A DNA stretch of 64,000 bases from Pseudomonas alkylphenolica (GTDB lineage Bacteria > Pseudomonadota > Gammaproteobacteria > Pseudomonadales > Pseudomonadaceae). Below the pieces are notes generated by a model that was given only the letters and a program-made list of their open reading frames with translations, ran no database searches and had not been told where the DNA came from. The position numbers and the translations under genes are program-made. Location of the stretch: the NCBI RefSeq assembly GCF_004025535.1, contig NZ_QJRG01000050.1, forward strand, positions 177,589-241,588, given 5' to 3'. Shown here in pieces: positions 1 to 41,698 of this stretch (positions within the stretch are counted from its first letter, which is position 1; each line of letters begins with the position of its first letter).

Positions 1-2
1 TC

Positions 3-233
3 GGCCTTGCCGAAGCTGCCGATCATCCCCACAGTCGGGCCCGCGGCAGCTTCATCGAGGTCGATGGCGTGGTACAGCCGGTTCCTGCCCCGCGTTTTCT
101 TGGCACCCCTTCGGCGCAGCCGCGACCCGCCCCGCAACGCGGCGAGCTGGGTCATGCGGCATTGCGCGACTGGGGCTTCGACAGCGTTGCCATCGAGCGT
201 CTGCAGGCGTCAGGCCTGGGTTTCAAAGCCTGA
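3..233 (+). CDS. CaiB/BaiF family CoA-transferase or alpha-methylacyl-CoA racemase, C-terminal fragment
   Basis: Only the last 76 residues lie in the window; the gene enters from the left edge in frame 3 and stops at TGA 231-233. The segment with ADHPHSRARGSF followed by VDGVVQPVPAPRF is the typical C-terminal part of class III CoA-transferases and alpha-methylacyl-CoA racemases, just before the C-terminal helix. The family moves CoA between acids or epimerises alpha-methyl acyl-CoA esters in the cytoplasm. The complete relative at 31,905 shares the layout of this region and has the racemase residues, so racemase is my preferred guess here too, but the catalytic part is outside the window. 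The downstream enoyl-CoA hydratase starts 51 bases later, so this is probably part of the same operon. Confidence 0.8.
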   Translation, partial: GLAEAADHPHSRARGSFIEVDGVVQPVPAPRFLGTPSAQPRPAPQRGELGHAALRDWGFDSVAIERLQASGLGFKA

Positions 234-284
234 TAGCGCAGCCGTGAACACCCCCTGGAAGTCCCGCAGCGCTGGAGTTAGGCC

Positions 285-2709: not shown

Positions 2710-4242
2710 ATGTACATGACCCAATGCCTGCAGCGCATGCTGCAGCAGGACCCGGAGCATACCGCGACGGTTTTTGCCGGGCGCCGGCAGACCTACCGCC
2801 AGTTTGGCCGGCGCGTGGCGCGCCTGGCCGGTGCATTGCAACACCTGGGCATGGCAGCGGGTGACCGGGTCGGCATGCTGGCGTGCAATTCAGATCGCTA
2901 CCTTGAATACATCATGGGGGTGTGGTGGGGCGGCGGGGTACTCAACCCGGTCAACATCCGCTGGAGCGTGGCGGAAATCGTCTATTCGCTGGACGATTGC
3001 GCCACCGGTATCCTCATCGTCGACGCGCACTTTGCGCCGATGGCCGAGGCCATCCGCCAGAGCGCCCGCCAGGCGCCGCTGTTCATTTATGCGGGGGACG
3101 GCGAAGTGCCGCCGGGCATGCTCGGTTTCGAGCAGTTGATTGAGCAGGCAAAGGCAGTTGACGATGCCGGCCGTGGCGGTGACGACCTGGCCTGCATCAT
3201 GTACACCGGCGGTACCACCGGGTCGCCCAAAGGGGTGATGCAATCCCACTTGAACCTGTGGTCGGCGTGCATGCCGCGCATGGTCGATATGCCGCCGATA
3301 CGCGGCGGACGGCTGCTGCACGTGGCGCCGCTGTTCCATGTTGCCGGTATGGCGCGTGCACTGATTCAGTTTCTGGCCGGCGAAAGCCATGTGCTGGTGG
3401 CAGGCTTCGATGCCGGGCAGGTACTACAGGTGATCGAGCAGGAGCGAATCACCGAGACACTGTTGGTACCGACCATGATCCTTGCCCTGTTGGCCCATCC
3501 GGACATTGACCGCTACGACCTCGGCAGCCTCAAACGCCTGACCTACGGTGCCTCACCCAGTGCCGGCGAGATGGTCGAGCAGGTGCTGGCACGCTTTCCC
3601 GACATTGAGCTGTCGCATTCATACGGCCTGACCGAAGCCTGCCCGGTGGTCTCAAGCAATCTGCCCTGGAACCACACGCCGCAAGCGCGCAAGTGTGGCT
3701 TGTCGCGCTCGGTCGGGCGCGGCGGGCTGGGCGTGAATGTAAAGATCGTTGACCCTCAAGGCCACGAGGTGCCGCGTGGCACGGTGGGCGAAATCATTGT
3801 GCGCGGGCCGAACATCATGCTCGGCTACTGGAACCGTCCCGAAGAAACCGCCCGGGCCTTGCGTAACGGCTGGCTGTACACCGGCGATGCGGCGTACATG
3901 GACAAGCAGGGGTACCTGTTCATTGTCGACCGCCTCAAAGACATGATCGTCAGTGGCGGCGAGAACGTGTATTGCGCCGAGGTGGAGAACGTCCTTGCGC
4001 GCCACCCGGCGGTGGCGCAGTGCGCTGTCATCGGCATCCCCCATGCGCAGTGGGGCGAAGCCGTGCATGCGGTGGTGGTCCTCAAGCCGGGTGCTAAAAC
4101 CGACGCTGAGCAATTGAAGGCCCATTGCCGCGCCTACATTGCCGGCTACAAATGCCCCAGGAGCGTGGCGTTTCGCGACCAACTCCCGCTTTCCGCTGCC
4201 GGCAAGGTCCTCAAGCGCGAGCTGCGCAAACCCACGCTATAG
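2710..4242 (+). CDS. acyl-CoA synthetase (AMP-forming), second tandem copy
   Basis: A 510-residue acid:CoA ligase aligning end to end with the preceding gene. The loop YTGGTTGSPKG is at about residues 165-175, YGLTEA lies mid-protein, and AAGKVLKRELR at the C-terminus holds the adenylation lysine. The start ATG lies only four bases after the previous stop, so translation is probably coupled. The protein has clearly diverged from its neighbour in the region between the P-loop and the YGxTE motif, where the acyl-binding pocket lies. The two copies may therefore activate different intermediates. After this gene comes a dyad at 4252-4283, so the operon may pause or be re-initiated here. Function as a CoA ligase is secure; specificity is not. 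Confidence 0.92.
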   Translation: MYMTQCLQRMLQQDPEHTATVFAGRRQTYRQFGRRVARLAGALQHLGMAAGDRVGMLACNSDRYLEYIMGVWWGGGVLNPVNIRWSVAEIVYSLDDCATGILIVDAHFAPMAEAIRQSARQAPLFIYAGDGEVPPGMLGFEQLIEQAKAVDDAGRGGDDLACIMYTGGTTGSPKGVMQSHLNLWSACMPRMVDMPPIRGGRLLHVAPLFHVAGMARALIQFLAGESHVLVAGFDAGQVLQVIEQERITETLLVPTMILALLAHPDIDRYDLGSLKRLTYGASPSAGEMVEQVLARFPDIELSHSYGLTEACPVVSSNLPWNHTPQARKCGLSRSVGRGGLGVNVKIVDPQGHEVPRGTVGEIIVRGPNIMLGYWNRPEETARALRNGWLYTGDAAYMDKQGYLFIVDRLKDMIVSGGENVYCAEVENVLARHPAVAQCAVIGIPHAQWGEAVHAVVVLKPGAKTDAEQLKAHCRAYIAGYKCPRSVAFRDQLPLSAAGKVLKRELRKPTL

Positions 4243-4360: not shown

Positions 4361-5500
4361 ATGCACATCAACCGTACCGTTTACCGTGAAGACCATGAAA
4401 TGCTGCGCGAAACCGCGCGCCGCTTCTTCGAGCGCGAGTGCCTGCCCAAACAGGCGCAATGGGACGAAGACGGGCAGGTCGACCGGGAAACCTGGCTCAA
4501 GGCCGGCCGCCACAACCTGTTGTGCCTGACCGTGCCGGTCGAATACGGCGGCGGCGGTGGCGACTTCGGTCACTCGGCAGTGCTGATTGAAGAGCTGTAC
4601 CGCGCCGGTGTTTCGGGCTGGAGCCTGGGCGTGCATTCGGACATCGTCGCGCCATACATCGTGCGCCTGGGCACCGAAGCGCAGAAACAGCAATGGCTGC
4701 CGAAAATCTGCAGCGGTGAAACCGTGCTGGCTGTGGCCATGACCGAGCCGGGTACCGGCTCCGACCTCAAGGCGATCCGCACCACGGCAGTGCGCGACGG
4801 TGACGAGTGGGTCATCAACGGCAGCAAGACCTTCATCAGCAACGGCCTGACCTGCGACATGGTCGTGGTGGTGTGCAAGACCGACCCGAGCGCCGGCGCC
4901 AAGGGCTGCAGCCTGATCATGGTCGAGTGCGACCGCGAAGGCTTCCGTCGGGGCAACAAGCTGGAAAAGGTCGGCCAGGCAGCTGCCGACACCGCCGAAC
5001 TGTTTTTCGACAACGTGCGGGTGCCGGTGGGCAACCTGCTCGGTGAAGAAAACAAGGGCTTCATGCACCTGATGGAGGAGCTCCCGCAGGAGCGTCTGGT
5101 GATTGCGCTGTACAGCGCCGCGAAGCTTGAGCGCCTGCTGGAGCAGACCATCGAGTACGTCAAGGACCGCAAGGCCTTCAACCAGACGGTGTGGGACTTC
5201 CAGAACACCAAATTCAAACTCGCCGACATCAAGGCCCAGGCCACGGCCGTGCGGCTGACCATCGACCACTACATCAGCGAGCACATGCGCCGGCGCCTCA
5301 CCGTGCAGGAGTCGGCAATCGCCAAGCTGCTGGCCACCGAAACCTTGTGCAAGTGCATTGACGACATGGTCCAGCTGCACGGCGGCTACGGCTACATGCT
5401 GGAGTACCCGATTGCCCGTGCCTTCGTCGACATGCGGGTGACCCGCATTTTCGGCGGTACCAGCGAAGTGCTGCGCGAGTTGATCGCGCGCCAGTTGTGA
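4361..5500 (+). CDS. acyl-CoA dehydrogenase
   Basis: A 379-residue flavoprotein that introduces an alpha-beta double bond into acyl-CoA, passing electrons to ETF. The signature AMTEPGTGSD is at about residues 126-135, and the FAD-binding RKAF...DFQNTKF region and QLHGGYGY are present. At the usual medium-chain catalytic position the protein has IFGGTSE, with no glutamate. A glutamate instead lies in LPQERLVI (about E244), the position used by isovaleryl-CoA and long-chain acyl-CoA dehydrogenases. ATG 4361 after GGAGAG fits the family N-terminus; the longer in-frame extension runs back into the synthetase gene. It is followed 29 bases later by the thiolase gene. A paralogue with the same features is at 36,179. 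Confidence 0.93.
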   Translation: MHINRTVYREDHEMLRETARRFFERECLPKQAQWDEDGQVDRETWLKAGRHNLLCLTVPVEYGGGGGDFGHSAVLIEELYRAGVSGWSLGVHSDIVAPYIVRLGTEAQKQQWLPKICSGETVLAVAMTEPGTGSDLKAIRTTAVRDGDEWVINGSKTFISNGLTCDMVVVVCKTDPSAGAKGCSLIMVECDREGFRRGNKLEKVGQAAADTAELFFDNVRVPVGNLLGEENKGFMHLMEELPQERLVIALYSAAKLERLLEQTIEYVKDRKAFNQTVWDFQNTKFKLADIKAQATAVRLTIDHYISEHMRRRLTVQESAIAKLLATETLCKCIDDMVQLHGGYGYMLEYPIARAFVDMRVTRIFGGTSEVLRELIARQL

Positions 5501-5529: not shown

Positions 5530-6741
5530 ATGAGCGAAAAAGTACTGGTGGCCGGCGTTGGCATGATCCCGTTCAGCAAGCCGAGCGCCAGCCCGACCTA
5601 TGTGCAGATGGGCGCCGAAGCCGTACGGCGTGCCCTGGCCGATGCGGGTATCGATTACACCCTGGTCCAGGAGGCCTACGCCGGTTACGTCTATGGCGAT
5701 TCCACCTGCGGCCAGACCGTGCTCTACGAAGTCGGCATGACCGGCATTCCGGTGGTCAACGTCAACAACAACTGCTCCACCGGCTCCACGGCGCTGTATC
5801 TGGCACGCAAGGCGATCGAATCCGGTTCGGCCGATTGCGTGCTGGCGGTGGGTTTCGAGCAGATGCAGGCCGGGGCGCTGAAGTCCCATTGGGACGACCG
5901 GCCGCCGACCCGCGAACGCTTCCTGCCGATCCTGCGCGGGCTGACCGCCGATGTGGGTGCCGACATGGCGCAAGCCCTGCGCACCTTCGGCGGTGCCGGG
6001 CGCGAGTACATGCAAAAGTACGGTACACGTATGGAGACCTTCGCTGCCGTGCGTGCCAAGGCCAGCCGCCATGCCGCGAACAATCCGCTGGCACTGTTTC
6101 GCAAGGTATTGAGTAGCGAAGAAGTGATGGCTGACCCGGTGCTGTGGCCGGGAGTGATGACCCGTTTGATGGCGTGCCCGCCAACCTGTGGTGGTGCTGC
6201 CGCGATCCTGGTGTCGGAGCGCTTTGCGAAAAAGCATGGACTGCGCCGTGACGTGCAGATCGTCGCCCAGGCCATGACCACCGATACGCCTGAGTCCTTC
6301 AATTTCGAAAAGCCGTCGATGCTCGATTGGGTCGGCACCCACATGACCCGAGCGGCGGTCGACCAGGTGTATCAGAAAGCCGGTGTCGGCCCGCAGGACA
6401 TCGATGTCTGCGAACTGCACGACTGCTTCGCACAGAACGAAGTCATCTGCTACGAGTCACTGGGATTTTGCCCCGAGGGTGGCGCAGAAAAGTTCGTGAT
6501 GGACGGCGACAACACCTACGGCGGGCAGATCGTCATCAACCCGTCCGGAGGCCTGCTTTCCAAGGGCCACCCACTGGGCGCCACCGGGCTTGCGCAGTGC
6601 TACGAACTCACCCAGCAACTGCGCGGCAACGCTGACCAGCGCCAGGTTGACGGTGCGCGCCTGGCGATGGCGCACAACCTCGGGCTGGGTGGCGCCTGTG
6701 TCGTGACGCTGTATGGCAAAGTCAACGGAGGTGACCTGTGA
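5530..6741 (+). CDS. thiolase of the SCP-x / lipid-transfer type
   Basis: A 403-residue thiolase-fold protein of the SCP-x branch, often annotated lipid-transfer protein. The catalytic cysteine is in NNNCSTGS (C82). The CELHDCFAQNE segment and NPSGGLLSKGHPLGATG near the C-terminus supply the histidine and second-site residues. Members cleave 3-ketoacyl-CoA, notably of branched or steroid side chains, and some work as retro-aldolases with a DUF35 partner. No DUF35 gene is visible here. The start is ATG 5530, preceded by CAGGTGACAGC. The end overlaps the next gene by four bases (GTGA), indicating translational coupling. The second copy at 33,181 is interrupted at the codon equivalent to E30 of this protein, so this is the only intact thiolase in the window. 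Confidence 0.9.
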   Translation: MSEKVLVAGVGMIPFSKPSASPTYVQMGAEAVRRALADAGIDYTLVQEAYAGYVYGDSTCGQTVLYEVGMTGIPVVNVNNNCSTGSTALYLARKAIESGSADCVLAVGFEQMQAGALKSHWDDRPPTRERFLPILRGLTADVGADMAQALRTFGGAGREYMQKYGTRMETFAAVRAKASRHAANNPLALFRKVLSSEEVMADPVLWPGVMTRLMACPPTCGGAAAILVSERFAKKHGLRRDVQIVAQAMTTDTPESFNFEKPSMLDWVGTHMTRAAVDQVYQKAGVGPQDIDVCELHDCFAQNEVICYESLGFCPEGGAEKFVMDGDNTYGGQIVINPSGGLLSKGHPLGATGLAQCYELTQQLRGNADQRQVDGARLAMAHNLGLGGACVVTLYGKVNGGDL

Positions 6742-7895
6742 GCAGCCTGCTCGATGCCTTCCGCCTGACCGCGTTACCCGCGCATGCCGAGGCCTTCCGC
6801 GCTGAAGTGAAACGCTTTCTGCGTGACCACCTGCCCACCGTGTCGGCCGATGTGCGGGCACGCAGCTGGACCGGGTTCGACGCAGCCTTCAGTCGCAAGC
6901 TGGCGCAGCGCGGCTGGGTCGGCTTGACCCTGCCCAGCGCCTATGGTGGCGCGGGGCTGGATGCGTTCAGCCGCTTTGTGCTGGTCGAAGAACTGCTGGC
7001 TGCCGGCGCTCCGGTCGCAGCGCACTGGATCGCCGACCGCCAGAGCGGGCCGCTGATCCTCAAGTTCGGCAGTGAGGCGCAGAAAGATTTCTACTTGCCG
7101 CGCATCTGTGCCGGCCAGGCGTTTTTCTGCATTGGCATGAGCGAGCCCAATGCCGGCTCCGACCTTGCCAGCGTGCGCAGCCGCGCCACGCCCGGCGAAG
7201 GCGGTTGGCGCCTGAACGGGCGCAAGATCTGGACCACCAATGCCCACCATGCTGACTACATGATCGCCCTAGTGCGCACCAGCGGCGCCCCCGAGGACCG
7301 TCACCACGGGCTGTCGCAGTTCATCATCGACCTCAAGCAGCCGGGCATCAGTGTGCGGCCGATCCTTGACCTTGCCGGTGATGCGCATTTCTCCGAAGTG
7401 GCCTTTGACGATGTACTGCTACCACACGAGGCGCTGGTGGGCGAGGAGGGCAGTGGCTGGAAGCAGGTCAACGCCGAACTGGCCTTCGAGCGCAGCGGCC
7501 CGGAGCGTTTCTATTCCAGCGTAGTACTGCTCGACCTTTGGGCCGACACCTTGCGCCGCCACGGCGCCAGTGCCGCCGAGACCGCCTTGTTGGGCAGCTT
7601 CATTAGCCAACTGGCGAGTTTGCGCAGCCTGTCGGTGGCGTTGACGGCATTGCTGGCCCGGGGTGAAAGCCCGGTGGTGGAGGCCGCCCTGGTCAAGGAC
7701 ATCGGCACCGAGTTCGAACAGTCGATTCCGGCGGCGATCGCTGCGGCGATCAGCGCCGCGCCAGACACACCGATTGACGACGAGCTGTACCGCACCGTTG
7801 CCTACCTGAACCAGGTTGCGCCGACCTTCTCGTTGCGTGGCGGCACCCGGGAAATCTTGCGCGGCATGATCGCCCGTGGCCTTGGCCTGCGCTGA
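6738..7895 (+). CDS. acyl-CoA dehydrogenase, large subunit of a pair
   Basis: A 385-residue ACAD beginning with GTG 6738, which overlaps the thiolase stop as GTGA. The signature GMSEPNAGSD, the WTTNAHHADY strand and the C-terminal RGGTREILRGMI are present. The usual C-terminal catalytic glutamate is absent; the glutamate in the AFERSGPERF segment is the likely base. The next gene is a short ACAD lacking the TEPGxGSD signature. This arrangement matches heteromeric ACADs such as PimC/PimD or the steroid side-chain enzymes, in which FAD sits at the subunit interface. I infer that the two gene products form an alpha2beta2 complex. A similar pair is encoded at 18,049/19,253. The substrate is unknown. 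Confidence 0.88.
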   Translation: MSSLLDAFRLTALPAHAEAFRAEVKRFLRDHLPTVSADVRARSWTGFDAAFSRKLAQRGWVGLTLPSAYGGAGLDAFSRFVLVEELLAAGAPVAAHWIADRQSGPLILKFGSEAQKDFYLPRICAGQAFFCIGMSEPNAGSDLASVRSRATPGEGGWRLNGRKIWTTNAHHADYMIALVRTSGAPEDRHHGLSQFIIDLKQPGISVRPILDLAGDAHFSEVAFDDVLLPHEALVGEEGSGWKQVNAELAFERSGPERFYSSVVLLDLWADTLRRHGASAAETALLGSFISQLASLRSLSVALTALLARGESPVVEAALVKDIGTEFEQSIPAAIAAAISAAPDTPIDDELYRTVAYLNQVAPTFSLRGGTREILRGMIARGLGLR

Positions 7896-7916: not shown

Positions 7917-8918
7917 ATGTTCACTGAAGCAATTGAAAAAATTCTTGCTGACCTATGTACGCCGGCACGCGTCCGTGCGGTGGAAAACGGCGACGGCGCA
8001 CTGGCGCTGTGGCGCGCCCTGGAGGACGGCGGATTCCTTCAGCTGCTGACGCCGGAGTCGCAAGACGGTGCGGGGCTGTCGCTGGCTGCGTTGTTCCCCG
8101 TGTTGCTTGCTTTCGGTCGCCATGCATTGCCGGTGCCGGCGGCCCAGAGCATCGCCGCACGGGCGTTGATGCAGGGCTGCTCGCAGCAGCCACCGGCCGG
8201 CATGCTGAGCCTGGCCGGCAGCAGTCACAGCGATGCCGAGGGTGGCGTGTGCGTGCCGCGATTGGCCTACGGCATGCTCGCCGGGCATGTCCTGGTAAAC
8301 CGCGGCGGCGACCTGCTGCTGCTCGATTGCAGCCTGGCCCGGCGCGAGCCTGTGGGTGTCCATGCCAGCCAGTGCGCCACGCTGTACTGGCCCAGGGACG
8401 CTGTCGGTACGCCGCTGGGCAGCAACGGCGAAGCGGTGCGTCTGTTCGCCGCGGCGATTCACGCAGCGAGCATGGCCGGTGCCATGGAGCGGGTACTGGA
8501 CATGACGCTCGCCTACTGCAACGACCGGATCCAGTTCGGCAAGGCCATTGGCAAGTTCCAGGCCGTTCAGCATCAGCTCAGCGTGATGGCCGAACAGGTG
8601 GCTGCTTCACGCATGGCGGCCGAACTGGCCTTTGCCTCTGAACAAGCGGTTCCGGCAATGATCCCGGTGGCCATCGCCAAGGCGCGCACCAGCATGGCCG
8701 TGCCCCGGGTTACTGCCACGGCCCATGCCTTGTTTGGCGCTATCGGCGTGACCGAGGAACTGGACCTGCAGCTGTTCACCCGACGCTTGCACGAGTGGCG
8801 TGTCAGCGAAGGGTCGGAAACCTGGTGGAACGGCCAGGTAGGGCAGGCACTGCTGGCGCAACCACACATGACAGCCTGTGAATTCGTGCGCCATGTCACC
8901 GAATCGACCATCGCCTGA
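7917..8918 (+). CDS. acyl-CoA dehydrogenase-like, small subunit of a pair
   Basis: A 333-residue ACAD-fold protein, shorter than the usual 380-400. The C-terminal helical half is recognisable by RIQFGKAIGKFQAVQHQL, with the flavin-contacting arginine and glutamine, and by HALFGAIGVTEE. The beta-barrel middle is much reduced and lacks the TEPGxGSD signature, so it is unlikely to work alone. It starts 21 bases after the preceding large subunit, with GAGGAAAG as ribosome-binding site. By analogy with known heteromeric ACADs it would complete the flavin site of its neighbour. An alternative is a solitary degenerate ACAD, but the conserved large/small order at two places in this window argues against it. 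Confidence 0.85.
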   Translation: MFTEAIEKILADLCTPARVRAVENGDGALALWRALEDGGFLQLLTPESQDGAGLSLAALFPVLLAFGRHALPVPAAQSIAARALMQGCSQQPPAGMLSLAGSSHSDAEGGVCVPRLAYGMLAGHVLVNRGGDLLLLDCSLARREPVGVHASQCATLYWPRDAVGTPLGSNGEAVRLFAAAIHAASMAGAMERVLDMTLAYCNDRIQFGKAIGKFQAVQHQLSVMAEQVAASRMAAELAFASEQAVPAMIPVAIAKARTSMAVPRVTATAHALFGAIGVTEELDLQLFTRRLHEWRVSEGSETWWNGQVGQALLAQPHMTACEFVRHVTESTIA

Positions 8919-31712: not shown

Positions 31713-31808
31713 GGGTCTCTCTGGCCAAAGGGGCCGCCTGTGACGGGCAGCTCTGGTTGTTCTGTGGTGCAGATAATGCCACGGGCGCGCAACCTCGCGT
31801 CAATTTCA

Positions 31809-31872: not shown

Positions 31873-31904
31873 GTAATGCCACTAACCAATAAGAGAGAAA
31901 AAGC

Positions 31905-33032: not shown

Positions 33033-33040
33033 ACCGGGGA

Positions 33041-33059
33041 GGGTGGGATGACCCCACCC
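33041..33059 (+). terminator. hairpin after the racemase-type gene
   Basis: GGGTGGG/CCCACCC seven-base perfect stem with loop ATGAC, followed by TTTCCCC. It starts nine bases after the stop and could attenuate transcription into the thiolase gene. The downstream genes may have a second promoter in the 148-base gap. Confidence 0.6.
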
Positions 33060-33180
33060 TTTCCCCACCCCTTTCTACTCGTGGAGGGCGGGGTACAGGC
33101 GAAAAGCGTTGCGCAACCATGATGCCAGGGCCCCGGAAACACCGGTGAGCCAGCCAAGTCTACTGACCGCGGAGAATACG

Positions 33181-34368
33181 ATGTCCCAGAAAACCTACGT
33201 TGCCGGTGTCGGCATGATCCAGTTCGCCAAGCCCGGTGCCAGCGGCAGCTACATCGAAATGGGCGCCTAGGCTGTGCGCCAGGCGCTGCAGGATGCCGGT
33301 ATCGGTTACGAGCTGGTGCAACAGGCCTACGCCGGCTACGTGTATGGCGACTCCACCTGCGGCCAGTCGGCGCTGTATGAAGTGGGCATGACCGGCATTC
33401 CGGTGATCAACGTCAACAACAACTGCGCCAGCGGTTCCACGGCGCTGTTCATGGCCCGCCAGGCGGTAGAAAGCGGTGCTGTCGACTGCGCCCTGGCGTT
33501 TGGCTTCGAACAGATGCAGCCCGGCGCTCTGAAAAACTTCTGGACCGACCGTCCGCTGACCATGGGCAAGGGCTTTGACAGCGCCGCGCTGGCGTTCCCG
33601 GAGGGCGTCGGTATGCCGGGCGCACTGATGTTCTTCGGCGGCGCCGGCCGCGAACACATGAACAAGTACGGCACGCGCATGGAAACCTTCGCCGCAATCC
33701 GTGCCAAAGCCAGCCGCCATGCCGCCAATAACCCGCTGGCGGTGTTCAAGAAAGTCGTCAGCACTGAAGAAGTGATGGCCGACCAGGTGGTCTGGGAAGG
33801 GGTGATGACCCGCCTGATGGCCTGCCCGCCGACCTGCGGTGGTGCTGCGGCGATCATCGTTTCCGAGCGTTTTGCCAAGCGTCATGGCCTGCGCACCGAT
33901 GTGTCGATCCTGGCCCAGGCGATGACCACTGATACGCCCGATGCCTTCGAGCCGCCGTCGATGATCGACATCGTCGGTACCGGCATGACCCGCTCGGCTG
34001 CCTGGCAGGTTTACGACAAGGCCGGCGTCGGCCCGGAGGATATCCGCGTCTGCGAACTGCACGACTGTTTCGCCCACAACGAATTGCTCACCTATGAAGG
34101 CCTGGGTTTCTGCCCGGTCGGCGGCGGCGAGCAGTTCGTTCTCGATGGCGACAACACCTACGGCGGCAAGGTGGTGGTCAACCCGTCCGGTGGCCTGCTT
34201 TCCAAGGGCCACCCGCTGGGCGCCACCGGTCTTGCGCAGTGCTACGAGCTGACCCATCAGCTGCGCGGCAGCGCCGAAGCGCGCCAGGTGGAAGGGCTGC
34301 AGCACGCCTTGCAGCACAACCTGGGCCTGGGTGGCGCCGGCGTCGTGACCCTGTACGGTCGCGGCTGA
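33181..34368 (+). pseudogene. SCP-x-type thiolase interrupted by an in-frame TAG
   Basis: Reading from ATG 33181, the first 29 codons encode an N-terminus matching the intact thiolase at 5530 (SQKTYVAGVGMIQFAKPGA and so on). Codon 30 is TAG (33,268-33,270), where the paralogue has glutamate. The frame then continues uninterrupted to TGA at 34,368 with all active-site motifs, including NNNCASGS, CELHDCFAHNE and NPSGGLLSKGHPLGATG. A single G-to-T change of GAG would explain it. A GTG at 33,274 could in principle restart translation, but no ribosome-binding site stands before it and the product would lack the first strand of the thiolase fold. Either a true null allele, a sequencing error or suppressed stop. 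The rest is not decayed, so the event is recent. Confidence 0.85.
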
Positions 34369-34399
34369 TCGTCCCGCCAATCACCAGGAAACCATCGAA

Positions 34400-34840
34400 A
34401 TGGCAGATAAAAGTCTGATCGGTCGTGCCCTTGGCACCACCACCAGTGCCGTGGAAAAGGGGCGTCTGCGCTTCTTCGCCAAGGCCATTGGCGAGACCGA
34501 CCCGGTTTACACCGACGAAGAAGCGGCGAGGGCGGCGGGTTATCCGGCCCTGCCGGTACCCCCCACCTTCCTGCTGTGCCTGGAAAGTGAAGGCCGTGAC
34601 CCGCAAGCGATCGTTGAAGACATCATGGGCTTTGACCTCGGGCGCATCCTGCATGCCGAGCAGGAATTCAGTTACCACCACATGGCCTTTGCCGGCGATG
34701 TACTGACCTTCGACACGCGCATTGCCGATGTCTACGAGAAGAAAGGCGGGGCCTTGCAGTTCGTGGTCCAGCAGACCCGTATCACCAACCAGGACGGCGT
34801 ACACATCGCCGACCTTCGCTCCTCGCTCGTGCAGCGCTGA
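34400..34840 (+). CDS. MaoC-like hydratase, non-catalytic half
   Basis: A 146-residue hot-dog-fold protein of the N-terminal MaoC type. Where active hydratases have a GDxNPxH motif this one reads GETDPVYTDEEAA, with the histidine replaced by tyrosine, so it probably serves as the structural half of a heterodimer, as HadA or HadC does in mycobacteria. The next gene, nine bases downstream, encodes the half with the intact motif. Together they would form an R-specific 2-enoyl-CoA hydratase suited to bulky acyl chains. The ribosome-binding site AGGAAACC precedes the ATG. It lies 31 bases after the interrupted thiolase. Confidence 0.85.
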   Translation: MADKSLIGRALGTTTSAVEKGRLRFFAKAIGETDPVYTDEEAARAAGYPALPVPPTFLLCLESEGRDPQAIVEDIMGFDLGRILHAEQEFSYHHMAFAGDVLTFDTRIADVYEKKGGALQFVVQQTRITNQDGVHIADLRSSLVQR

Positions 34841-34849
34841 GGCCTAGTC

Positions 34850-35284
34850 ATGACCCATACCCCGACCCGTGCCCTCCAGTACAGCGATGTACACGTCGGC
34901 ACCGAATTGCCGCTGCTCAGGCTACGTCCGGTCAATCGCACCATGCTGGCGTTGTACGCCGGTGCGTCCGGCGACCACAACCAGATCCACATAGACATCG
35001 ACTTTGCCCGCAAGGCCCGCGTCCCTGACGTGTTCGCCCACGGCATGTTGTCGGCCGCCTACCTGGGCCGTCTGCTGACCAGCTGGGTGCCGCAAACGCA
35101 AATCCGCAGCTTTTCCATGCGCTTTGTCGGCATTACCCAGATTGGCCACATCCCGCACCTGACCGGCCGCGTAACGGAAAAATTCGAGGCCGACGGCGAG
35201 CAACGCGTGCGCCTGCAGATCCAGTGCGCCAACCAGTACGGCGAACCCAAGGTCGTCGGCGAAGCCGTTGTCGCCCTGGCCTGA
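34850..35284 (+). CDS. MaoC-like hydratase, catalytic half
   Basis: A 144-residue hot-dog-fold protein carrying the hydratase-2 motif YAGASGDHNQIHID, with catalytic D42 and H47. It would hydrate 2-enoyl-CoA to the (R)-3-hydroxyacyl-CoA. The start is nine bases after the preceding MaoC-like gene, and both are half-size, so an obligate heterodimer is likely. The product fits the following short-chain dehydrogenase, since MaoC plus SDR is the logic of peroxisomal multifunctional enzyme 2. The first operon instead uses a crotonase hydratase, so the island can make either hydroxy stereoisomer, or treat two different rounds of the cycle. Specificity remains inferred. Confidence 0.88.
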   Translation: MTHTPTRALQYSDVHVGTELPLLRLRPVNRTMLALYAGASGDHNQIHIDIDFARKARVPDVFAHGMLSAAYLGRLLTSWVPQTQIRSFSMRFVGITQIGHIPHLTGRVTEKFEADGEQRVRLQIQCANQYGEPKVVGEAVVALA

Positions 35285-35329
35285 CCCCTCCCTTACAGAT
35301 GCTAGAAGACGTTTAAGAAGGTAATAACA

Positions 35330-36160
35330 ATGAAAAAACTCGAAGGCAAAGTCGCCCTGGTCACTGGCTCCGGTCGTGGAATCGGCCGCAGTGTCGCCCT
35401 GAAACTGGCCGCCGATGGCGCCCGCGTGGTGGTCAATGACCTCGATGCCGGCCCGGCCGAAGAAGTCGTGGGCGAAATTCGCGCTGCCGGTGGCGACGCC
35501 GTTGCCTGCGTGGGTAGTGTCACCGCCGTGGATTTTGCCGAGCGCTTCATCAAGACGGCGGTCGACAGCTTTGGCGGCATCGACATCATCGTCAACAATG
35601 CCGGTTATACCTGGGACAACGTGATCCAGAAGATGAGCGATGAGCAGTGGTACGCCATCATCGACTGCCACCTGACCGCACCGTTCCGCATCCTGCGCGC
35701 TGCGCAGCCCGTCATCAGTGCCCTGGCCAAGCAAGAAGCCGCCGAAGGCCGCGTGGTCAACCGCAAGGTGGTCAACATTTCATCCATCGCTGCCGGCGGC
35801 AACGCCGGTCAGGCCAACTACTCGTCTGCCAAGGCGGGCATCCTCGGCATGACCAAATCGCTGTCCAAGGAGTGGGGGCGTTACAACGTCAACGTCAACG
35901 CCGTGGCCTTCGGTCATATCGATACGCGCATGACCCAGGCCCTGGCGGGTGATGCCAGCAAGACCGTCAACATCGAAGGCCGTGAAATCAAGGTCGGCAT
36001 CCAGCCGGCGGCCATCGCCGCCAGCAACCAGCTGTGCCCGCTGGGCCGCCCGGGCACGCCTGACGAAGCGGCAGGCTCGGTCTACCTGTTCTGCATCCCT
36101 GAATCCAATTTCGTCTCCGGCCAGGTGCTGGTGTGCGGCGGCGGTTTCGGCAACGTCTGA
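35330..36160 (+). CDS. short-chain dehydrogenase/reductase, probable 3-hydroxyacyl-CoA dehydrogenase
   Basis: A 276-residue classical SDR. The cofactor motif TGSGRGIG is at residues 12-19, NNAG is at 89-92, the catalytic serine is in NISS (about 151-152), and Y164 and K168 are in YSSAK. An acidic residue after the second strand (NDLD) indicates NAD rather than NADP. An insertion between strands near residues 195-225 and the sequence type recall the dehydrogenase part of multifunctional enzyme 2. With the MaoC pair upstream, oxidation of (R)-3-hydroxyacyl-CoA to the 3-keto form is the natural reading. It is the only 3-hydroxyacyl-CoA dehydrogenase candidate in the island. The ACAD gene follows after 18 bases. 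Confidence 0.88.
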   Translation: MKKLEGKVALVTGSGRGIGRSVALKLAADGARVVVNDLDAGPAEEVVGEIRAAGGDAVACVGSVTAVDFAERFIKTAVDSFGGIDIIVNNAGYTWDNVIQKMSDEQWYAIIDCHLTAPFRILRAAQPVISALAKQEAAEGRVVNRKVVNISSIAAGGNAGQANYSSAKAGILGMTKSLSKEWGRYNVNVNAVAFGHIDTRMTQALAGDASKTVNIEGREIKVGIQPAAIAASNQLCPLGRPGTPDEAAGSVYLFCIPESNFVSGQVLVCGGGFGNV

Positions 36161-36178
36161 CTGAGTGAGGAGAACACC

Positions 36179-37330
36179 ATGCGTGTAGCGAACTATGTGT
36201 CGCCTTGGGAAGATGCCGACCTGGTTGCCTTCCGTGACAGCATCCGCCGATTCGTACGCGAGCAGCTGCTGCCGCACGAAGACAAATGGCGCGAACAGCA
36301 CCGTTCCGACCGCAGCGCCTGGCTGGCCTGCGGCGAGATGGGCATGATCCTCCCGGACATGCCCTCCGAGTACGGTGGTGCCGACGGTACGCCTGCCCAC
36401 TACGCAGTGGCGATGGAAGAACTGACCTATGCCGGCGCGATGAGTATCGCCCTGAGCATCAACCACATCGTTGGCCATTACATTCTCGCCGGTGGTACCG
36501 AGGCGCAGAAACGCCACTGGCTGCCGAAGATCGCTTCCGGCGAGTGCATCTGCTCGATCGCCATGACTGAGCCGGGTACCGGTTCCGACCTGCAGGGCGT
36601 GCGTACCCGTGCAGTGAAGCACGGCGACAAGTACCTGATCAGTGGCTCGAAGACCTTCATCAGCAACGGCCAGAACAGTGACATGGTGGTGGTGATCGCC
36701 AAGACCGACCTGGAGGCCAAGGGCTCGCGTGGCATCTCGCTGTTCCTGGTCGATACCGCGACCCCGGGTTTCCAGCGCGGCAAGTGCCTCGACAAGATCG
36801 GCCTGCCGGGCCAGGACACCTCGGAAATGTTCTTCCAGGACTGCGAAGTACCGGCGGACTGCCTGCTTGGCGGCGTAGAAGGCCAGGGTTTTGCCCAGCT
36901 GATGCAGCAATTGCCGTATGAACGCGCGGAAATTTCCATCCAAGCGGCGGCTTCCCTTGAGCGTGCGCTGGCGTTGACGGTGGAGTACACCCGCGAGCGC
37001 AAGGCATTTGGCAAGTCGATCCTGGACTTCCAGAACACCCGTTTCACCCTGGCTGAAGTCAAGGCCACCACGCTGGCCTCGCGCCTGTTCGCCGACCTGA
37101 TCGTGCAGCGTTGGGTGGACGGCACCCTCGACACCACCCTGGCGTCGATGGGCAAGTTCTGGCTGACCGACCGCCAGGGCGAAGTGATCGATGATTGCCT
37201 GCAGTTCTTCGGTGGTTTCGGCTACATGAACGAATACCCGATCGCGCGGATGTTCGCCGATGCGCGGGTGGCCCGTATCTATGGCGGTGCCAACGAAATC
37301 CAGCGTGAGCTGGTGGGACGCTCGCTGTAA
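36179..37330 (+). CDS. acyl-CoA dehydrogenase
   Basis: A 383-residue ACAD related to that at 4361. It has AMTEPGTGSD, KTFISNGQNSDMVVV, RKAFGKSILDFQNTRF and C-terminal RIYGGANEIQRELV. No glutamate stands in the C-terminal position; the glutamate in LPYERAEI is at the site used by isovaleryl-CoA and long-chain enzymes. FAD and ETF dependence is assumed from the family. It follows the SDR gene by 18 bases with GAGGAG before the ATG. A dyad lies between it and the acyl-CoA synthetase gene. Probably acts on the acyl-CoA supplied by that ligase and the racemase of this operon. Confidence 0.92.
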   Translation: MRVANYVSPWEDADLVAFRDSIRRFVREQLLPHEDKWREQHRSDRSAWLACGEMGMILPDMPSEYGGADGTPAHYAVAMEELTYAGAMSIALSINHIVGHYILAGGTEAQKRHWLPKIASGECICSIAMTEPGTGSDLQGVRTRAVKHGDKYLISGSKTFISNGQNSDMVVVIAKTDLEAKGSRGISLFLVDTATPGFQRGKCLDKIGLPGQDTSEMFFQDCEVPADCLLGGVEGQGFAQLMQQLPYERAEISIQAAASLERALALTVEYTRERKAFGKSILDFQNTRFTLAEVKATTLASRLFADLIVQRWVDGTLDTTLASMGKFWLTDRQGEVIDDCLQFFGGFGYMNEYPIARMFADARVARIYGGANEIQRELVGRSL

Positions 37331-37338
37331 GGGGCCAG

Positions 37339-37374
37339 GCCGGGCGGCGTTCATCCACGAGAGGGTCGCCCGGC
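37339..37374 (+). terminator. inverted repeat after the ACAD gene
   Basis: GCCGGGCG (37,339-37,346) and CGCCCGGC (37,367-37,374) are perfect complements across a 20-base loop, beginning nine bases after the stop. The long loop and lack of a T-run make it a weak terminator or processing stem inside the operon. The 129-base gap around it may hold an internal promoter. Confidence 0.45.
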
Positions 37375-37459
37375 TTGCCAGGGAAGGCATCAACGATTCT
37401 GCGCCGGACAGCAAATCCCTTTCAGATTCGATCCTAAAATAATAAGACAGGAGGCTCCG

Positions 37460-39028
37460 ATGTACATTACTCAAGGGTTGCAACGCCATCTTCAGCAGCG
37501 CCCCAACGCGGTAGCCATTCGTGAAATGGGCCGTAGCCTGACCTTCGCCGGCCTGGCCGAGCGCGTTGCGCGCCTGGCCGGGGCGCTCAAGGCGCTGGGC
37601 ATGGCCAGCGACGACTGCATTGCCATGCTCTCGCGCAACTCGCAGCGCTATATCGAATATGCCCTGGGCGTGCCGTGGGCCGATTGCGTGCTCAATCCGG
37701 TCAACACCCGCTGGAGCGTTGCAGAAATCGTCTATTCGCTGTGCGATTCGAATTCCCGCGTGTTGATCGTCGACGACACGTTCAAAGACATGGGCGCCGC
37801 CATCGCCGCGCAGTCGCCATGCGTTCGCCACGTCATTTATGCCGGCGACGGCCCGACCCCGGCCGGCATGCTCAACTATGAAACCTTGCTGGCCGAAGCG
37901 ATCCCGCAGGAGGATGCGCGCCGTGGCGGCGATGCCCTGCTGGGCATTTTCTACACCGGCGGCACCACCGGCTTCCCCAAAGGCGTGATGATCAGTCACG
38001 CCAACCTGGCATTCGCCGGGCTCTCGGCCATGACCCGTGGGTTCTTCGGCGAAGACGCCGTGTTCCTGCATGCCATGCCGATGTTCCACCTTGCCGACTT
38101 CTCGGCCCTGTACTGCCTGACTGTCAGTGGCGGCACCCATGTGGTCCTGCCAGCCTTCAGCGGCGAAGCGGCGATCAGTACCATCATCAGCGAACAGGTC
38201 ACCGACCTGATGCTGGCCCCGACCATGATCCAGATGATGCTTGATGCGCGCCAGGCGGACACCCAGACCTGCGACATTGCCCTGGGCTCCATTCGCTACA
38301 TCGTCTATGGCGCTTCACCGATTACCCCGGCACTGCTCGATCGTGCCTGCGAGGCCTTCCCGGCAGCGGGCTTTTTTCAGGGTTACGGCATGACCGAGCT
38401 GACCACCGGCGGCACCATGCTTGATGCCGAGTACCACTGCGCCCATCACCAGCAAAGCGGCAAGATGTATTCGGCGGGGCGTGCAGTGAACTGCGTGGAG
38501 CTTAAGAAGGTCGACAGCGAGGATCGTGAAGTGCCTCGTGGCACGGTAGGCGAGATCATCGTGCGTGGCCCGAATGTCATGCTCGGCTACTGGAACCGGC
38601 CTGAAGATACCGCCCAGGTGCTCAGGCAGGGCTGGATGCACACTGGCGACGGTGGCTACATGGATGACGAGGGCTTTGTCTACATCGTCGATCGGCTCAA
38701 GGACATGATCGTCAGTGGCGGCGAAAACATCTATTCGGCAGAAGTGGAGAACGCCCTCAGCAGTCATCCGGCGGTCGCCCAGTGCGCGGTGATCGGCATT
38801 CCGTCAGACAAGTGGGGAGAAAGCGTACACGCGGTGATCGTGCTCAAAGCTGAAAATCACGTCCATGCCGATACGCTGGTTGCCCATTGCCGCGAGCGGA
38901 TCGCCGGCTACAAATGCCCGCGCAGTATCGAATTCCGTGAAGCCATGCCGCTCTCGGGGGTCGGCAAGATCCTCAAGAACGAGCTGCGAAAGTCCTTTTG
39001 GGAAAATCGCACGCGTAATGTTGGTTGA
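37460..39028 (+). CDS. acyl-CoA synthetase (AMP-forming), third copy
   Basis: A 522-residue acid:CoA ligase with the same N-terminal form (MYITQGL) as the tandem copies at 1149 and 2710. P-loop YTGGTTGFPKG is at about 165-175, YGMTELT is mid-protein, VDRLKDMIVSGGENIYSAE is the hinge region, and GVGKILKNELRK has the catalytic lysine. The nucleotide-binding half is strongly conserved among the three copies, while the region between residues 185 and 330 differs, suggesting different acyl groups. It is preceded by ACAGGAGG and followed 12 bases later by a LuxR-type gene, so ligase and regulator are probably co-transcribed. Confidence 0.92.
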   Translation: MYITQGLQRHLQQRPNAVAIREMGRSLTFAGLAERVARLAGALKALGMASDDCIAMLSRNSQRYIEYALGVPWADCVLNPVNTRWSVAEIVYSLCDSNSRVLIVDDTFKDMGAAIAAQSPCVRHVIYAGDGPTPAGMLNYETLLAEAIPQEDARRGGDALLGIFYTGGTTGFPKGVMISHANLAFAGLSAMTRGFFGEDAVFLHAMPMFHLADFSALYCLTVSGGTHVVLPAFSGEAAISTIISEQVTDLMLAPTMIQMMLDARQADTQTCDIALGSIRYIVYGASPITPALLDRACEAFPAAGFFQGYGMTELTTGGTMLDAEYHCAHHQQSGKMYSAGRAVNCVELKKVDSEDREVPRGTVGEIIVRGPNVMLGYWNRPEDTAQVLRQGWMHTGDGGYMDDEGFVYIVDRLKDMIVSGGENIYSAEVENALSSHPAVAQCAVIGIPSDKWGESVHAVIVLKAENHVHADTLVAHCRERIAGYKCPRSIEFREAMPLSGVGKILKNELRKSFWENRTRNVG

Positions 39029-39040
39029 CCGGATAGTGCC

Positions 39041-41698
39041 ATGCCCTGTGTTCAGTTGATTACCACCCAGTTCACTCCTGCGCGGCTGAGTACCCGTACC
39101 GTCCTGCGCGAGCAGTTGCTGGAAAAGCTCCAGCACTGGCGGCATAGCCGCCTGGTGCTGGTCACCGGCAGCGCCGGGTTCGGCAAGACGACGCTGATTG
39201 CCCAATGGCGACAGGCATTGATCACCGCTGGCGCGCAGGTGGCGTGGCTGTCGCTGGCGGTGGACGATGGCCGGCTCGAAACGTTTTGCGCCCACCTGAT
39301 CGGCGCCTTGCGCCACGCGGGCCTGGCGATTGACGATGAGCTGCTGCAACCGATGCCGACCGCCGACGCCAGCGTGCAGGCGGCCTCGGCGTTGCTGATC
39401 AACGCCTTGGCGCAGCTCGGCGGCAAGCTCTACCTGATGGTCGATGATGCTCATCACATTACCGATGCACGCACGGTTGCGCTGATACAGATGCTCTGCG
39501 AGAACCTGCCCGAGGACGTGCACCTGGTACTGGCTTCGCGGGTTGTCTCGCCCCTGCAATTGGGGCGGCTGCGCGCGCTGGGCCAGGTGTGTGAAATCGA
39601 CAGCGCAAAGCTGGCCTTCGATTTTCGTGAGTCGCTGGCGTTTCTCAGGGGGCATCTGGATGAGCAGCTGGAGCTTGAGACGGTCCATGCCGCCCATGCG
39701 TTGACCGACGGCTGGCCGATCGGCCTGCAGCTACTGGCCATCGCGCTGAAGAACAACCCGCGTACGCCCCTGCAAAGTGCTGCATTTGCGCACAACAATG
39801 CGGCGTTGGCCGACTACCTGGCGCAGGATGTCGTGGCGGGCTTGCCTGGCGAGTTGTTGGTGTTTCTGCAAAAGCTCTCCGTGCTGCGTCGCTTCAACGC
39901 TGAAGTGGCGGCGTACGTCTTTGAAGAGCCCGACGCGGTGCAGAAAATTGCCGCCCTGGAGGCACACAACCTGTTCATCCAGCCGCTTGCTGTTGAGGGG
40001 CAGGGCTGGTACCGCATGCATCCACTGTTCGCCGAGTTTCTGGCCCAGCGTCTGCGCGCCAGCGGTGTGGATGAGCGGTCGCTGCACGGGCGTGCGGCGC
40101 ACTGGTTCGAACGCGCGGGGCTGGTTCAGGAGGCCTTTCGCCACGGTTTGCAATGTGAAGATTTCGGCCTGATCGTCGGGCTGCTGGAGCGCGTGCAACC
40201 GTCTACCCGCCGGGTGAGCCATCTGAGCCAGTTCATGCGCTGGCTGGAGCAACTGCCCCCGGGGGTGTTGAGCACGCACCCGAACCTGCTGTTGCTGGGG
40301 ATCTGGGGTGCGGTGCTGACGGTGCTCACGCGCCAGGCGCACGACTGGATCGGCCTGCTTGAACGTGTGCCCCTGACCGATGACTGGGAAGGGCAACTGA
40401 CATTGCTCAAGGCGGCATTGGCCATGCACCAGGATGACGACACCCGCTGCATGGTGCTGCTCGAATCCCTGGAGGGCAAAACGTTGCCAACCCCTTTTCA
40501 GGAGCAGGTGCGTATCGCGCTGACCATCAGTTGCCTGGCCTTGCGCGGGCACCATGGCCAGGCCCGCAACCTGTATCGGCAGCCCGCCGCGCGTTGCCTG
40601 CGCAGCGATGACGAAATGGCCTTGATGGGCCAGGTAACCATGGCCTCGGCGAGCCTGCTCGAAGGCAAGGCCGCTGAAGCCGAGCGCTTGTGCGCGCCCG
40701 TGCTGGACCAGGCAGAACGGCTGCATGGCAGGCGCTCGGTGAGTGCCTGCAGCGCTGCGGTGGTGATGGCCGAAGTGTGCTACGAGCTCAATCGGGTAGA
40801 GCAGGCCGGTGAAATCCTCGCCAACCGCCTGGACATCCTGCGCTTTTCGGCGCCGATGTTCATGATCGGTGCCGCACTGTGTCACGGGCGCTTGATCAAC
40901 CTGCAGGCGTCGCCACGGGCGGCGCTGGATTATCTGGCGGAAAAAGAAGAGCACTTCGCCAACCTGGAACTGGACCGTGGCGTTGGCAGCATGTTGGCCG
41001 AGCAATTGCGCCTGGCCTTGATGTGTGGCGATTGCAGCCATGCCGAAGTGCTGCAGGGCAGGCTTGAAGAACTGGCGCGCAACCACCGTGGGGCGACGCC
41101 CTGCGATGCCGAGATCATGACCCTCGCGGGCTTGTCGAGAGCGCGATTGTCCCTGGCCAGGCAGCAGCACGAAGCCGCCCTGCAGGCGCTGGATATCGCC
41201 CAGCGTTATGCCGGGGAGTTCAACCGCGGGCGCTGGCGGGTTCAGGTCGATTTGTTGCGGGCGTTCGCCTTGCACGCACTCAAGCGCGAGGGCGAAGCGC
41301 AGGACAGCCTCAAGGCGGCAGTCGCCTGCGCTTATCGACTGGGCCTGGTGCGTACCTTGCTGGACGAAGGGAGCCTGTTCCAGTCGATGCTGGGCGAACT
41401 GAAGCTGGAGGAGGGGTCGGTGCTGGCCGAGTACCGCCAGGAGCTGCTCAGTACCGCACCGCCTGTCGCGGCGGTTGCGGTGGCGGCGCCAGTAACGCGA
41501 GAGCAGGGCCCGACGATGACCCGCCGTGAGCAGGAGATCCTTGACCTGCTGGAACAGTCGATGTCCAACAAGCATATTGCCCTGGCACTGAACCTGAGCC
41601 TGCAGACGGTCAAATGGAACCTGAAGAACATCTTCGCCAAGCTGGGTGTTTTCAGCCGTTACGATGCGATCCTGGCGATGCGCAGGCAGCGCCAGTGA
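39041..41698 (+). CDS. LuxR family ATP-binding regulator, MalT-like, copy 4
   Basis: An 885-residue MalT-type protein. Walker A TGSAGFGKTTL is at about residues 42-52, LMVDDAHHI gives the Walker B acids, helical repeats fill the middle, and the last 60 residues are a LuxR helix-turn-helix (MTRREQEILDLLEQS...LSLQTVKWNLKNI). It differs from the other three in having Phe in the P-loop (GFGKT). It starts 12 bases after the acyl-CoA synthetase stop, so its level likely rises with the operon, a positive-feedback arrangement. It converges on a third DUF1329 gene with two hairpins between. Targets could be its own operon or the minus-strand operon. Confidence 0.9.
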   Translation: MPCVQLITTQFTPARLSTRTVLREQLLEKLQHWRHSRLVLVTGSAGFGKTTLIAQWRQALITAGAQVAWLSLAVDDGRLETFCAHLIGALRHAGLAIDDELLQPMPTADASVQAASALLINALAQLGGKLYLMVDDAHHITDARTVALIQMLCENLPEDVHLVLASRVVSPLQLGRLRALGQVCEIDSAKLAFDFRESLAFLRGHLDEQLELETVHAAHALTDGWPIGLQLLAIALKNNPRTPLQSAAFAHNNAALADYLAQDVVAGLPGELLVFLQKLSVLRRFNAEVAAYVFEEPDAVQKIAALEAHNLFIQPLAVEGQGWYRMHPLFAEFLAQRLRASGVDERSLHGRAAHWFERAGLVQEAFRHGLQCEDFGLIVGLLERVQPSTRRVSHLSQFMRWLEQLPPGVLSTHPNLLLLGIWGAVLTVLTRQAHDWIGLLERVPLTDDWEGQLTLLKAALAMHQDDDTRCMVLLESLEGKTLPTPFQEQVRIALTISCLALRGHHGQARNLYRQPAARCLRSDDEMALMGQVTMASASLLEGKAAEAERLCAPVLDQAERLHGRRSVSACSAAVVMAEVCYELNRVEQAGEILANRLDILRFSAPMFMIGAALCHGRLINLQASPRAALDYLAEKEEHFANLELDRGVGSMLAEQLRLALMCGDCSHAEVLQGRLEELARNHRGATPCDAEIMTLAGLSRARLSLARQQHEAALQALDIAQRYAGEFNRGRWRVQVDLLRAFALHALKREGEAQDSLKAAVACAYRLGLVRTLLDEGSLFQSMLGELKLEEGSVLAEYRQELLSTAPPVAAVAVAAPVTREQGPTMTRREQEILDLLEQSMSNKHIALALNLSLQTVKWNLKNIFAKLGVFSRYDAILAMRRQRQ

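Follow-up and report, generated by a model that had tools for sequence, protein, structure and literature searches.

What does a long run of acyl-CoA-processing genes in Pseudomonas alkylphenolica break down, and does it serve one pathway? The stretch that raises these questions—the window—comprises 64,000 nucleotides (C32:177589-241588) of genome G000 (6.17 Mb, 50 contigs). A first-pass annotation read positions 1-41698 as a single island encoding one undescribed pathway for alpha-methyl-branched chains. Our best reading is that the region holds two neighboring units of one kind, A and B, which would perform in a bacterium the beta-oxidation of alpha-methyl-branched acyl-CoAs known from peroxisomes; both the substrate and all of the reactions are predicted from sequence and gene context. 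A pathway acting on branched 2-methylacyl-CoAs is very probable, a sulfated starting compound is mildly favored, and a steroid side chain as the substrate stands at even odds. For the whole explanation—peroxisome-like units that most likely act on a sulfated C27 steroid side chain—we estimate a probability of roughly 45%.

Genes were called with a codon-usage script in the window and in the compared genomes, with approximate starts, and the larger window proteins were scanned against NCBIfam and Pfam. G-numbers denote genomes of a survey of the same genus, and L-numbers denote racemase loci. The labels KshB, IpdA, IpdB, HsaD, Sal, MoxR/Bat, MnxG, Ku, and SsuD were given by reading unless a match is named. 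Positions are those of the window, negative ones lying before it; genes are on the plus strand unless stated otherwise.

Enzymes and gene order of units A and B

The enzyme classes listed in the first-pass annotation all reappear in the profile scans: a racemase, an SCP-x thiolase, a MaoC pair, an MFE-2-like member of the short-chain dehydrogenase/reductase (SDR) family, two heteromeric acyl-CoA dehydrogenase (ACAD) pairs, three acyl-CoA ligases, an alcohol dehydrogenase (ADH), and an aldehyde dehydrogenase (ALDH). The racemase, SCP2-thiolase, and MFE-2-like set supports well the proposal of alpha-methyl-branched, isoprenoid- or sterol-like catabolism, and the genome context favors the sterol side.

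AMACR2 (31917-33032) was assigned by homology and catalytic residues; it scores 362 bits against chains of the Mycobacterium tuberculosis racemase (MCR) and 123 bits against the highest-scoring match with a name other than racemase. It retains the His, Asp, and Glu positions (in GHD, GD, and IEPQFY) that are catalytic in MCR. A second gene, AMACR1, starts 921 bases before the window (L001:19079), and its 3' end occupies positions 1-233; the protein is 54% identical to AMACR2 and carries GHD, LVGD, and IESRFY, the last being the counterpart of IEPQFY. Both genes encode predicted alpha-methylacyl-CoA racemases; by its scores, AMACR2 resembles known racemases more than it does class III CoA-transferases.

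One SCP-x thiolase had been reported; it is present, but the window holds two, SCPx2 (5530-6741, unit A) and SCPx3 (33274-34368, unit B, start approximate), and a third lies upstream. All three keep the NNNC, HDCF, and SKGHP motifs. SCPx2 matches PRK08256 at 666 bits (cut-off 436) and scores 432 bits against a solved SCP2-thiolase type-1 (6HSJ), 191 against benzoylsuccinyl-CoA thiolase, and 77 against the lipid-transfer protein 6OK1, which we take to be an Ltp2-type aldolase; SCPx3 was compared with Pfam and by motif only. Because the motifs are kept and the SCP2-thiolase score is far above that of 6OK1, these proteins look like true thiolases, and an Ltp2-type aldolase identity was rejected.

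The SDR of unit B (35330-36160) is a putative MFE-2-like (3R)-hydroxyacyl-CoA dehydrogenase: it scores 226 bits against 2ET6, a fungal MFE-2 named for that activity, versus 161 against the best FabG (3-oxoacyl-ACP reductase), and the curated NCBIfam models that it matches are FabG-type, with scores under cut-off. Just before it lies a MaoC pair resembling HadA/HadB, in which the first subunit (34400-34840) does not keep the hydratase motif and also weakly matches ChsH1 and ChsH2, and the second (34850-35284) carries the motif as GDHNxIH. Unit A adds two crotonase-fold enoyl-CoA hydratases; the gene at position 285 is one of these by profile match (ECHa, 285-1088), and ECHb (8929-9717) matches PRK09245 at 429 bits (cut-off 354).

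The heteromeric ACAD pair of ACAD_L3 (6738-7895) and ACAD_S3 (7917-8918) splits the domains of the fold, with the N-terminal and middle domains detected in the large subunit and the C-terminal domain, plus a weak N-terminal match, in the small one. The second pair closes unit A: its subunits (18049-19242 and 19253-20395) have PimC and PimD as their closest NCBIfam models (TIGR03204, 478 bits; TIGR03203, 343 bits), and the best solved matches of the former are 4X28 chain A (200 bits) and Tcur3483 (185 bits), which we take to be sterol side-chain enzymes. This resemblance is only a hint, PimC being the nearest of the curated models and itself matched under its cut-off. The pimelate pim operon was rejected as an identity for unit A: both subunits fall below the curated cut-offs (624 for PimC, 653 for PimD) and the other genes differ. 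Single ACAD genes are ACAD2 (4361-5500, scanned from 4139) in unit A and ACAD3 (36179-37330, profile match) in unit B.

Three acyl-CoA ligases match PRK06187 (cut-off 476): FadDa (1149-2705, scanned from 1104; 508 bits) and FadDb (2710-4242; 517 bits) in unit A, and FadDc (37460-39028; 508 bits) in unit B. Unit A also encodes the ALDH (15516-16868), whose best match is the benzaldehyde dehydrogenase MdlD (304 bits, under the cut-off of 550), and a zinc-type ADH (16898-17983, starting at 16898 or 16934).

In animals, the peroxisomal pathway of AMACR, branched-chain acyl-CoA oxidase, MFE-2, and SCPx handles pristanate and C27 bile acid precursors. The units resemble it in combining a racemase, a MaoC-type hydratase, an MFE-2-like dehydrogenase, and a thiolase of the SCP2 type in one gene set; they differ in being bacterial, in having dehydrogenases in place of oxidases and MaoC as two proteins, and in adding a sulfatase, an ADH, an ALDH, and ligases.

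Unit A comprises 23 genes, from an S1 sulfatase gene 9.9 kb before the window (-9931) to position 20395, and unit B spans 23088-41698; two DUF1254/DUF1214 genes separate them. The upstream part of unit A, on the minus strand, holds the sulfatase, an SDR, two MaoC proteins, the third SCP-x, an ACAD, and a MalT-like regulator, after which AMACR1 reads into the window on the plus strand. The island bounds first proposed therefore fall inside unit A at one end.

All 23 genes of unit A occur in the same order in G144, G120, and G256, with a few extra open frames; 20 of 23 were found in G385, and 15 in G185, where the fetched 20-kb piece ended. Median identities are 88-91%. We also observed two extra proteins (204-215 and 210 aa) between the SDR and the sulfatase in G120, G144, G256, and G385, and a protein of 138-144 aa between the two ligases in G144 and G120; neither has a call in G000. 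The unit B stretch AMACR-SCPx-MaoC-MaoC-SDR-ACAD-FadD is together in six of the nine other genomes fetched (G298, G333, G284, G277, G279, and G164), with one extra frame in G333 and G279; similar genes are rearranged in G227 and G256, and no such set is visible in what was fetched of G186. The gene order of unit B recurs in Pseudomonas sp. 30_B (L057) as far as its locus extends, and Paraburkholderia saeva (L133) carries SCP-x, MaoC, and SDR proteins at 68-78% identity. The closest named matches to the racemase locus of G000 come from Pseudomonas. Loci of P. vranovensis and P. putida ASAD align with G256 at up to 95-97% DNA identity, and locus L058 of P. vranovensis DSM 16006 has the arrangement AMACR-PimC-PimD-DUF1302-DUF1329.

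In other genomes unit B is found apart from unit A. Because the two occur separately, we read them as separable units that happen to be juxtaposed here, and a single pathway spanning 1-41698 was rejected.

Candidate substrates

The first clue to the substrate is the sulfatase. It belongs to family S1 (PF00884, 178 bits), its CTAGR sequence fits the C-x-(P/A/S)-x-R motif, and its N terminus is signal-like; the formylglycine maturase (FGE) family, PF03781, is present in G000. Its gene and that of the SDR are on one strand, 112 bases apart. Since members of the family are widespread in the genus, in 122 of 398 genomes at E <= 1e-100, the sulfatase was rejected as a specific marker of these clusters, and its weight rests mainly on its position in operon-like runs. 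A sulfatase lies within 30 kb of a racemase in at least 16 of the 32 racemase genomes, counted among the matches listed and with positions available for 24 of the 32; about 1.0 would be expected with random positions. Of the 16 sulfatase copies in the fetched neighborhoods, 7 belong to a same-strand run that includes genes for beta-oxidation, ADH, or ALDH, and five arrangements occur: the sulfatase follows the SDR in G120, G385, and G256, the racemase in G227, ALDH-ADH in G298, and PimD in G279, and it is flanked by MaoC and SCP-x in G333. In G144 and G185 the sulfatase stands beside unit A yet is not joined to the run (gap criterion <300 bases), and other copies stand alone or with other genes. 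Membership in such runs speaks for a sulfate ester as the substrate.

Several points weigh against this argument. The sulfatases of G015 and G040 look like those of another locus, which makes two of the 16 nearby pairs, among which both are counted, doubtful, and the strand-run count is not unbiased, because the neighborhoods were partly chosen for nearness of sulfatase and racemase. S1 sulfatases, moreover, act mostly on aryl or sugar sulfates. In favor of the argument, choline sulfatase is an S1 enzyme that acts on an alkyl sulfate (PMC5870055).

The second clue is a set of steroid ring genes on another contig of G000, C31. KshA was recognized there by its KshA_C and Rieske domains, and a ring-cleavage protein has HsaC as its best NCBIfam match (278 bits, cut-off 450), followed by BphC (268 bits). 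An HsaA match reaches 366 bits (under its cut-off of 450) and a FadD3 match 702 bits (above 657); an HsaD-like hydrolase scores 169 bits as HsaD, slightly below its 172 as BphD. Two CoA-transferase-like proteins match CoA_trans by Pfam only, the names IpdA and IpdB coming from reading, and a KshB-like protein has PaaE as its best match, under cut-off. C31 also shows a Sal/Shy-like arrangement, in which a thiolase-like protein adjoins one that combines ChsH2-type OB, zinc-ribbon, and MaoC domains. The first-pass statement that P450, ring-cleavage dioxygenase, and biotin carboxylase are lacking thus stands for the scanned window proteins, and for P450 genome-wide, but not for the genome's ring-cleavage genes.

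Across the 398 genus genomes, KshA_C (E <= 1e-30) occurs in 68 and an HsaC homologue (E <= 1e-60) in 68, with 67 in common. The HsaC homologues fall mostly into two bands of identity to that of G000, 80-96% and 53-61% (exceptions: G055, 69%; G238, 47%), which suggests that the steroid ring genes of the genus form two lineages. The racemase (E <= 1e-90) occurs in 32 genomes: 23 have both racemase and HsaC, 9 the racemase only, 45 HsaC only, and 321 neither, which gives an odds ratio of 18.2. The Fisher P of 5.8e-13 overstates the association, as kinship among the related genomes is ignored. Where the racemase is at least 61% identical, HsaC is present in 9 of 11 genomes. In G015, a second ring locus places an HsaC homologue 1.8 kb from a racemase gene, beside counterparts of many unit A and unit B genes, and in an actinobacterium (L075) the racemase stands beside KshA-, HsaA-, and HsaC-like genes. 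A PimC orthologue (E <= 1e-140) was found in 22 of 32 racemase genomes versus 2 of 24 HsaC-positive genomes without racemase, in a search of 56 genomes that covered all of the former and 24 of the 45 latter.

Other findings weigh against a steroid substrate, starting with what else accompanies HsaC. The sulfatase is associated with it (odds ratio 7.0), and so is PaaA, a phenylacetate degradation gene with no relation to steroids, found in 17/40 HsaC-positive and 7/40 HsaC-negative genomes (odds ratio 3.5, P 0.013). These 80 genomes were chosen by list position, from 68 HsaC-positive and 330 HsaC-negative ones; the same set has the racemase in 13/40 and 0/40, respectively. The racemase-HsaC odds ratio is 9.8 within sulfatase-positive genomes and 8.4 within sulfatase-negative ones, the latter resting on 2 genomes (P 0.05). 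Because PaaA and the sulfatase also associate with HsaC, part of the racemase link reflects versatile genomes; such a background exists, and the racemase-HsaC link exceeds it. Gene neighborhoods and absences also count against a steroid. Of 80 racemase loci taken from genome_contigs, only L075 has ring genes in the fetched flanks (<=10 kb), and the racemase alone was rejected as a steroid marker. G144, with unit A complete, has no KshA, HsaC, or IpdA-like match in its genome, and G227, with a variant that keeps many unit A genes, has no KshA or HsaC match. The 9 racemase genomes without HsaC have no KshA either; 3 of them show no IpdA-like match and 6 a weak one (30-33% identity). Conversely, 45 of 68 HsaC-positive genomes lack the racemase, so that ring genes mostly occur without it. 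Where unit A occurs without ring genes, either only the side chain is taken or the substrate is not a steroid.

The second of these options leads to the strongest alternative, to which we assign a substantial minority probability: the same enzymes would degrade a 2-methyl-branched compound other than a steroid—either an alkyl sulfate with a branched or isoprenoid chain, of natural or detergent origin, or an isoprenoid acid like pristanate—releasing propionyl- and acetyl-CoA round after round, and the link to ring genes would be one of versatile genomes. The ring-free genomes G144 and G227, the ring-free flanks of most racemase loci, and the PaaA association all speak for it. So does the gene content of unit A, in which two SCP-x thiolases and several ACADs, with no DUF35-type aldolase partner among its scanned proteins, fit repeated thiolytic rounds. 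It accounts poorly for the strength of the racemase-ring gene association, which persists among sulfatase-positive genomes, and for the racemase adjoining the ring locus in G015. A known route for methyl-branched chains in Pseudomonas, the Atu/Liu acyclic terpenoid pathway, differs in its biotin-dependent geranyl-CoA and methylcrotonyl-CoA carboxylases, subunits of which are absent among the scanned window proteins, the search being limited to the window. Also counting against the alternative, Alcanivorax growing on pristane is reported to use FadAB-type enzymes, and the main text of that study does not mention a racemase (PMC6850023).

Degradation of a cholesterol side chain in the actinobacterial manner is improbable. 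The units share with that pathway the racemase family (AMACR2 being nearest the mycobacterial enzyme), heteromeric ACADs, and a MaoC-type hydratase, and the presumed sterol enzymes 4X28 and Tcur3483 are the top solved matches of the PimC-like subunit. They differ from it in having thiolases with a catalytic Cys rather than an Ltp2-type aldolase, a sulfatase that cholesterol would leave unexplained, and no P450. PF00067 has 0 matches in G000 and G015, in a search that did not include other oxygenases such as AlkB types, versus 18, 5, and 33 in G027, G031, and G032, which belong to the same order and carry KshA_C genes; with no P450 match, G000 has no CYP125 or CYP142 to open the alkyl chain. 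Proteobacteria that were tested, including Pseudomonas resinovorans, did not metabolize cholesterol, a failure tied to missing CYP125/CYP142 (Bergstrand et al., PMC4810484).

Still less probable is ordinary bile-acid degradation with a C5 side chain, as in Pseudomonas sp. Chol1 and Comamonas testosteroni. These organisms share the phylum of G000, which has ring genes and the Sal/Shy-like arrangement on C31, outside the window. The C24 acid side chain, however, has no methyl group next to its carboxyl carbon, by established chemistry, and so needs no racemase, and most HsaC-positive genomes do without one. The known pathway takes an aldolase-hydratase route for C5 side chains, with no racemase mentioned in the main text of a review (PMC8399759); no Sal/Shy pair was seen in the window, and no DUF35/ChsH2-type domain among its Pfam-scanned proteins.

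A chance gathering of ordinary beta-oxidation paralogues with no common substrate, which might be suspected because such genes abound in Pseudomonas and most NCBIfam matches stay under their cut-offs, is hardly credible against the 23-gene order, which three further genomes keep in full and another two in part, the recurring AMACR-to-FadD stretch of unit B, and the distribution of PimC.

Other genes in and around the units

Between its second hydratase and the ALDH, unit A encodes a DUF1302 protein (9900-11717; PF06980, 561 bits), a DUF1329 protein (11747-13129; PF07044, 502 bits), and the MalT-like LuxR-type regulator MalT2 (13354-15381). The remaining assignments in this section rest on profile matches where no other basis is named. 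The two DUF1254/DUF1214 genes between the units lie at 20616-21857 and 21915-22952. Unit B begins on the minus strand with a DUF1329 gene (23088-24458) and a DUF1302 gene (24482-26239), followed by further MalT-like regulators: MalT3 (26520-28985), MalT4 (28986-31622, minus strand), and, at the end of the unit, MalT5 (39041-41698). A further DUF1329 gene (41791-43143, minus strand) is of uncertain membership in unit B.

Beyond the units, the minus-strand stretch 43623-48226 holds genes for an MFS transporter, a flavin reductase, and a luciferase-like monooxygenase beside a LysR gene, and may be a separate small catabolic unit outside unit B. From 48293 to 54663 lie a gene read as Ku-like and one for a multi-domain DNA ligase D, with glycosyltransferase and PIG-L deacetylase genes between them; this is apparently ordinary chromosome. 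Upstream, unit A is adjoined by a stretch (L001:2273-10047; C32:159861-167635; window -17727 to -9953) encoding a 1918-aa protein that reads as an MnxG-type multicopper oxidase, with no Pfam match, and then a beta-propeller protein. Farther off on C32, at ~65-72 kb (gene starts at window -112144 to -107592), a cluster reads as quinohemoprotein amine dehydrogenase, a maturation protein, and an acyl-CoA ligase, with 64-88% identity to counterparts in G015.

A proposed route and its meaning

In the reading that we prefer, the exported S1 sulfatase would strip the sulfate from a sulfated primary alcohol, and the ADH and ALDH of unit A would take the alcohol to a 2-methyl acid, from which the FadD ligases would form the CoA ester. 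The racemase would convert the 2-methyl center to the isomer usable by the dehydrogenase, and the ACADs would yield the enoyl-CoA. After hydration by the MaoC pair or the crotonases, the MFE-2-like SDR would carry out the oxidation, and an SCP2-type thiolase would free propionyl-CoA. Unit B appears to duplicate the ligase-to-thiolase part, with no sulfatase, ADH, or ALDH of its own. The MalT-type LuxR proteins presumably act as regulators, and the DUF1302 and DUF1329 proteins may serve at the envelope. The likeliest substrate would be a C27 steroid side chain that arrives oxidized, for example on a fish bile alcohol sulfate, with the nucleus degraded by the ring genes of C31. A C27 side-chain route that depends on a racemase and has no P450 would be reasonable for compounds that already bear oxygen at C26/27, as C27 bile alcohol sulfates do, and the ADH and ALDH of unit A fit the two steps that follow.

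A more specific version is tentative, and rather unlikely in full: unit A would be a Pseudomonas pathway that has spread horizontally and is dedicated to C27 bile alcohol sulfates, such as the 5-alpha-cyprinol sulfate of carp-like fish, proceeding by desulfation, oxidation of the C26/27 alcohol, racemization at C25, and peroxisome-like thiolytic removal of propionyl-CoA. It would feed the ring pathway where that is present and otherwise end with a shortened acid. 5-alpha-cyprinol sulfate is reported to be the dominant bile salt of Cypriniformes and the signal from fish that triggers the daily vertical migration of Daphnia (PMC6559785); a bile-acid degradation review mentions it as a signal (PMC8399759).

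Among the matches listed in searches of the open-access literature (subscription journals and bioRxiv being outside this scope), none, judged by title and the beginning of the abstract, gives an account of this gene combination in Pseudomonas or of a bacterial bile alcohol sulfate pathway, and the earlier description of the genes as "undescribed" is consistent with that. Peroxisome-like beta-oxidation of branched chains is already known as a kind; what is new is its organization as conserved Pseudomonas units, one of them sulfatase-linked.

If the preferred reading is true, these genes, and the testable enzymes they encode, would account for turnover of C27 bile alcohol sulfates; if the substrate is instead a branched alkyl sulfate, it is compounds of that type that the unit would serve to degrade. 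In the former case, bacteria would carry the peroxisomal logic of AMACR, MFE-2, and SCPx as a conserved catabolic unit—a hint at how Proteobacteria that lack P450 could still use C27 steroids.

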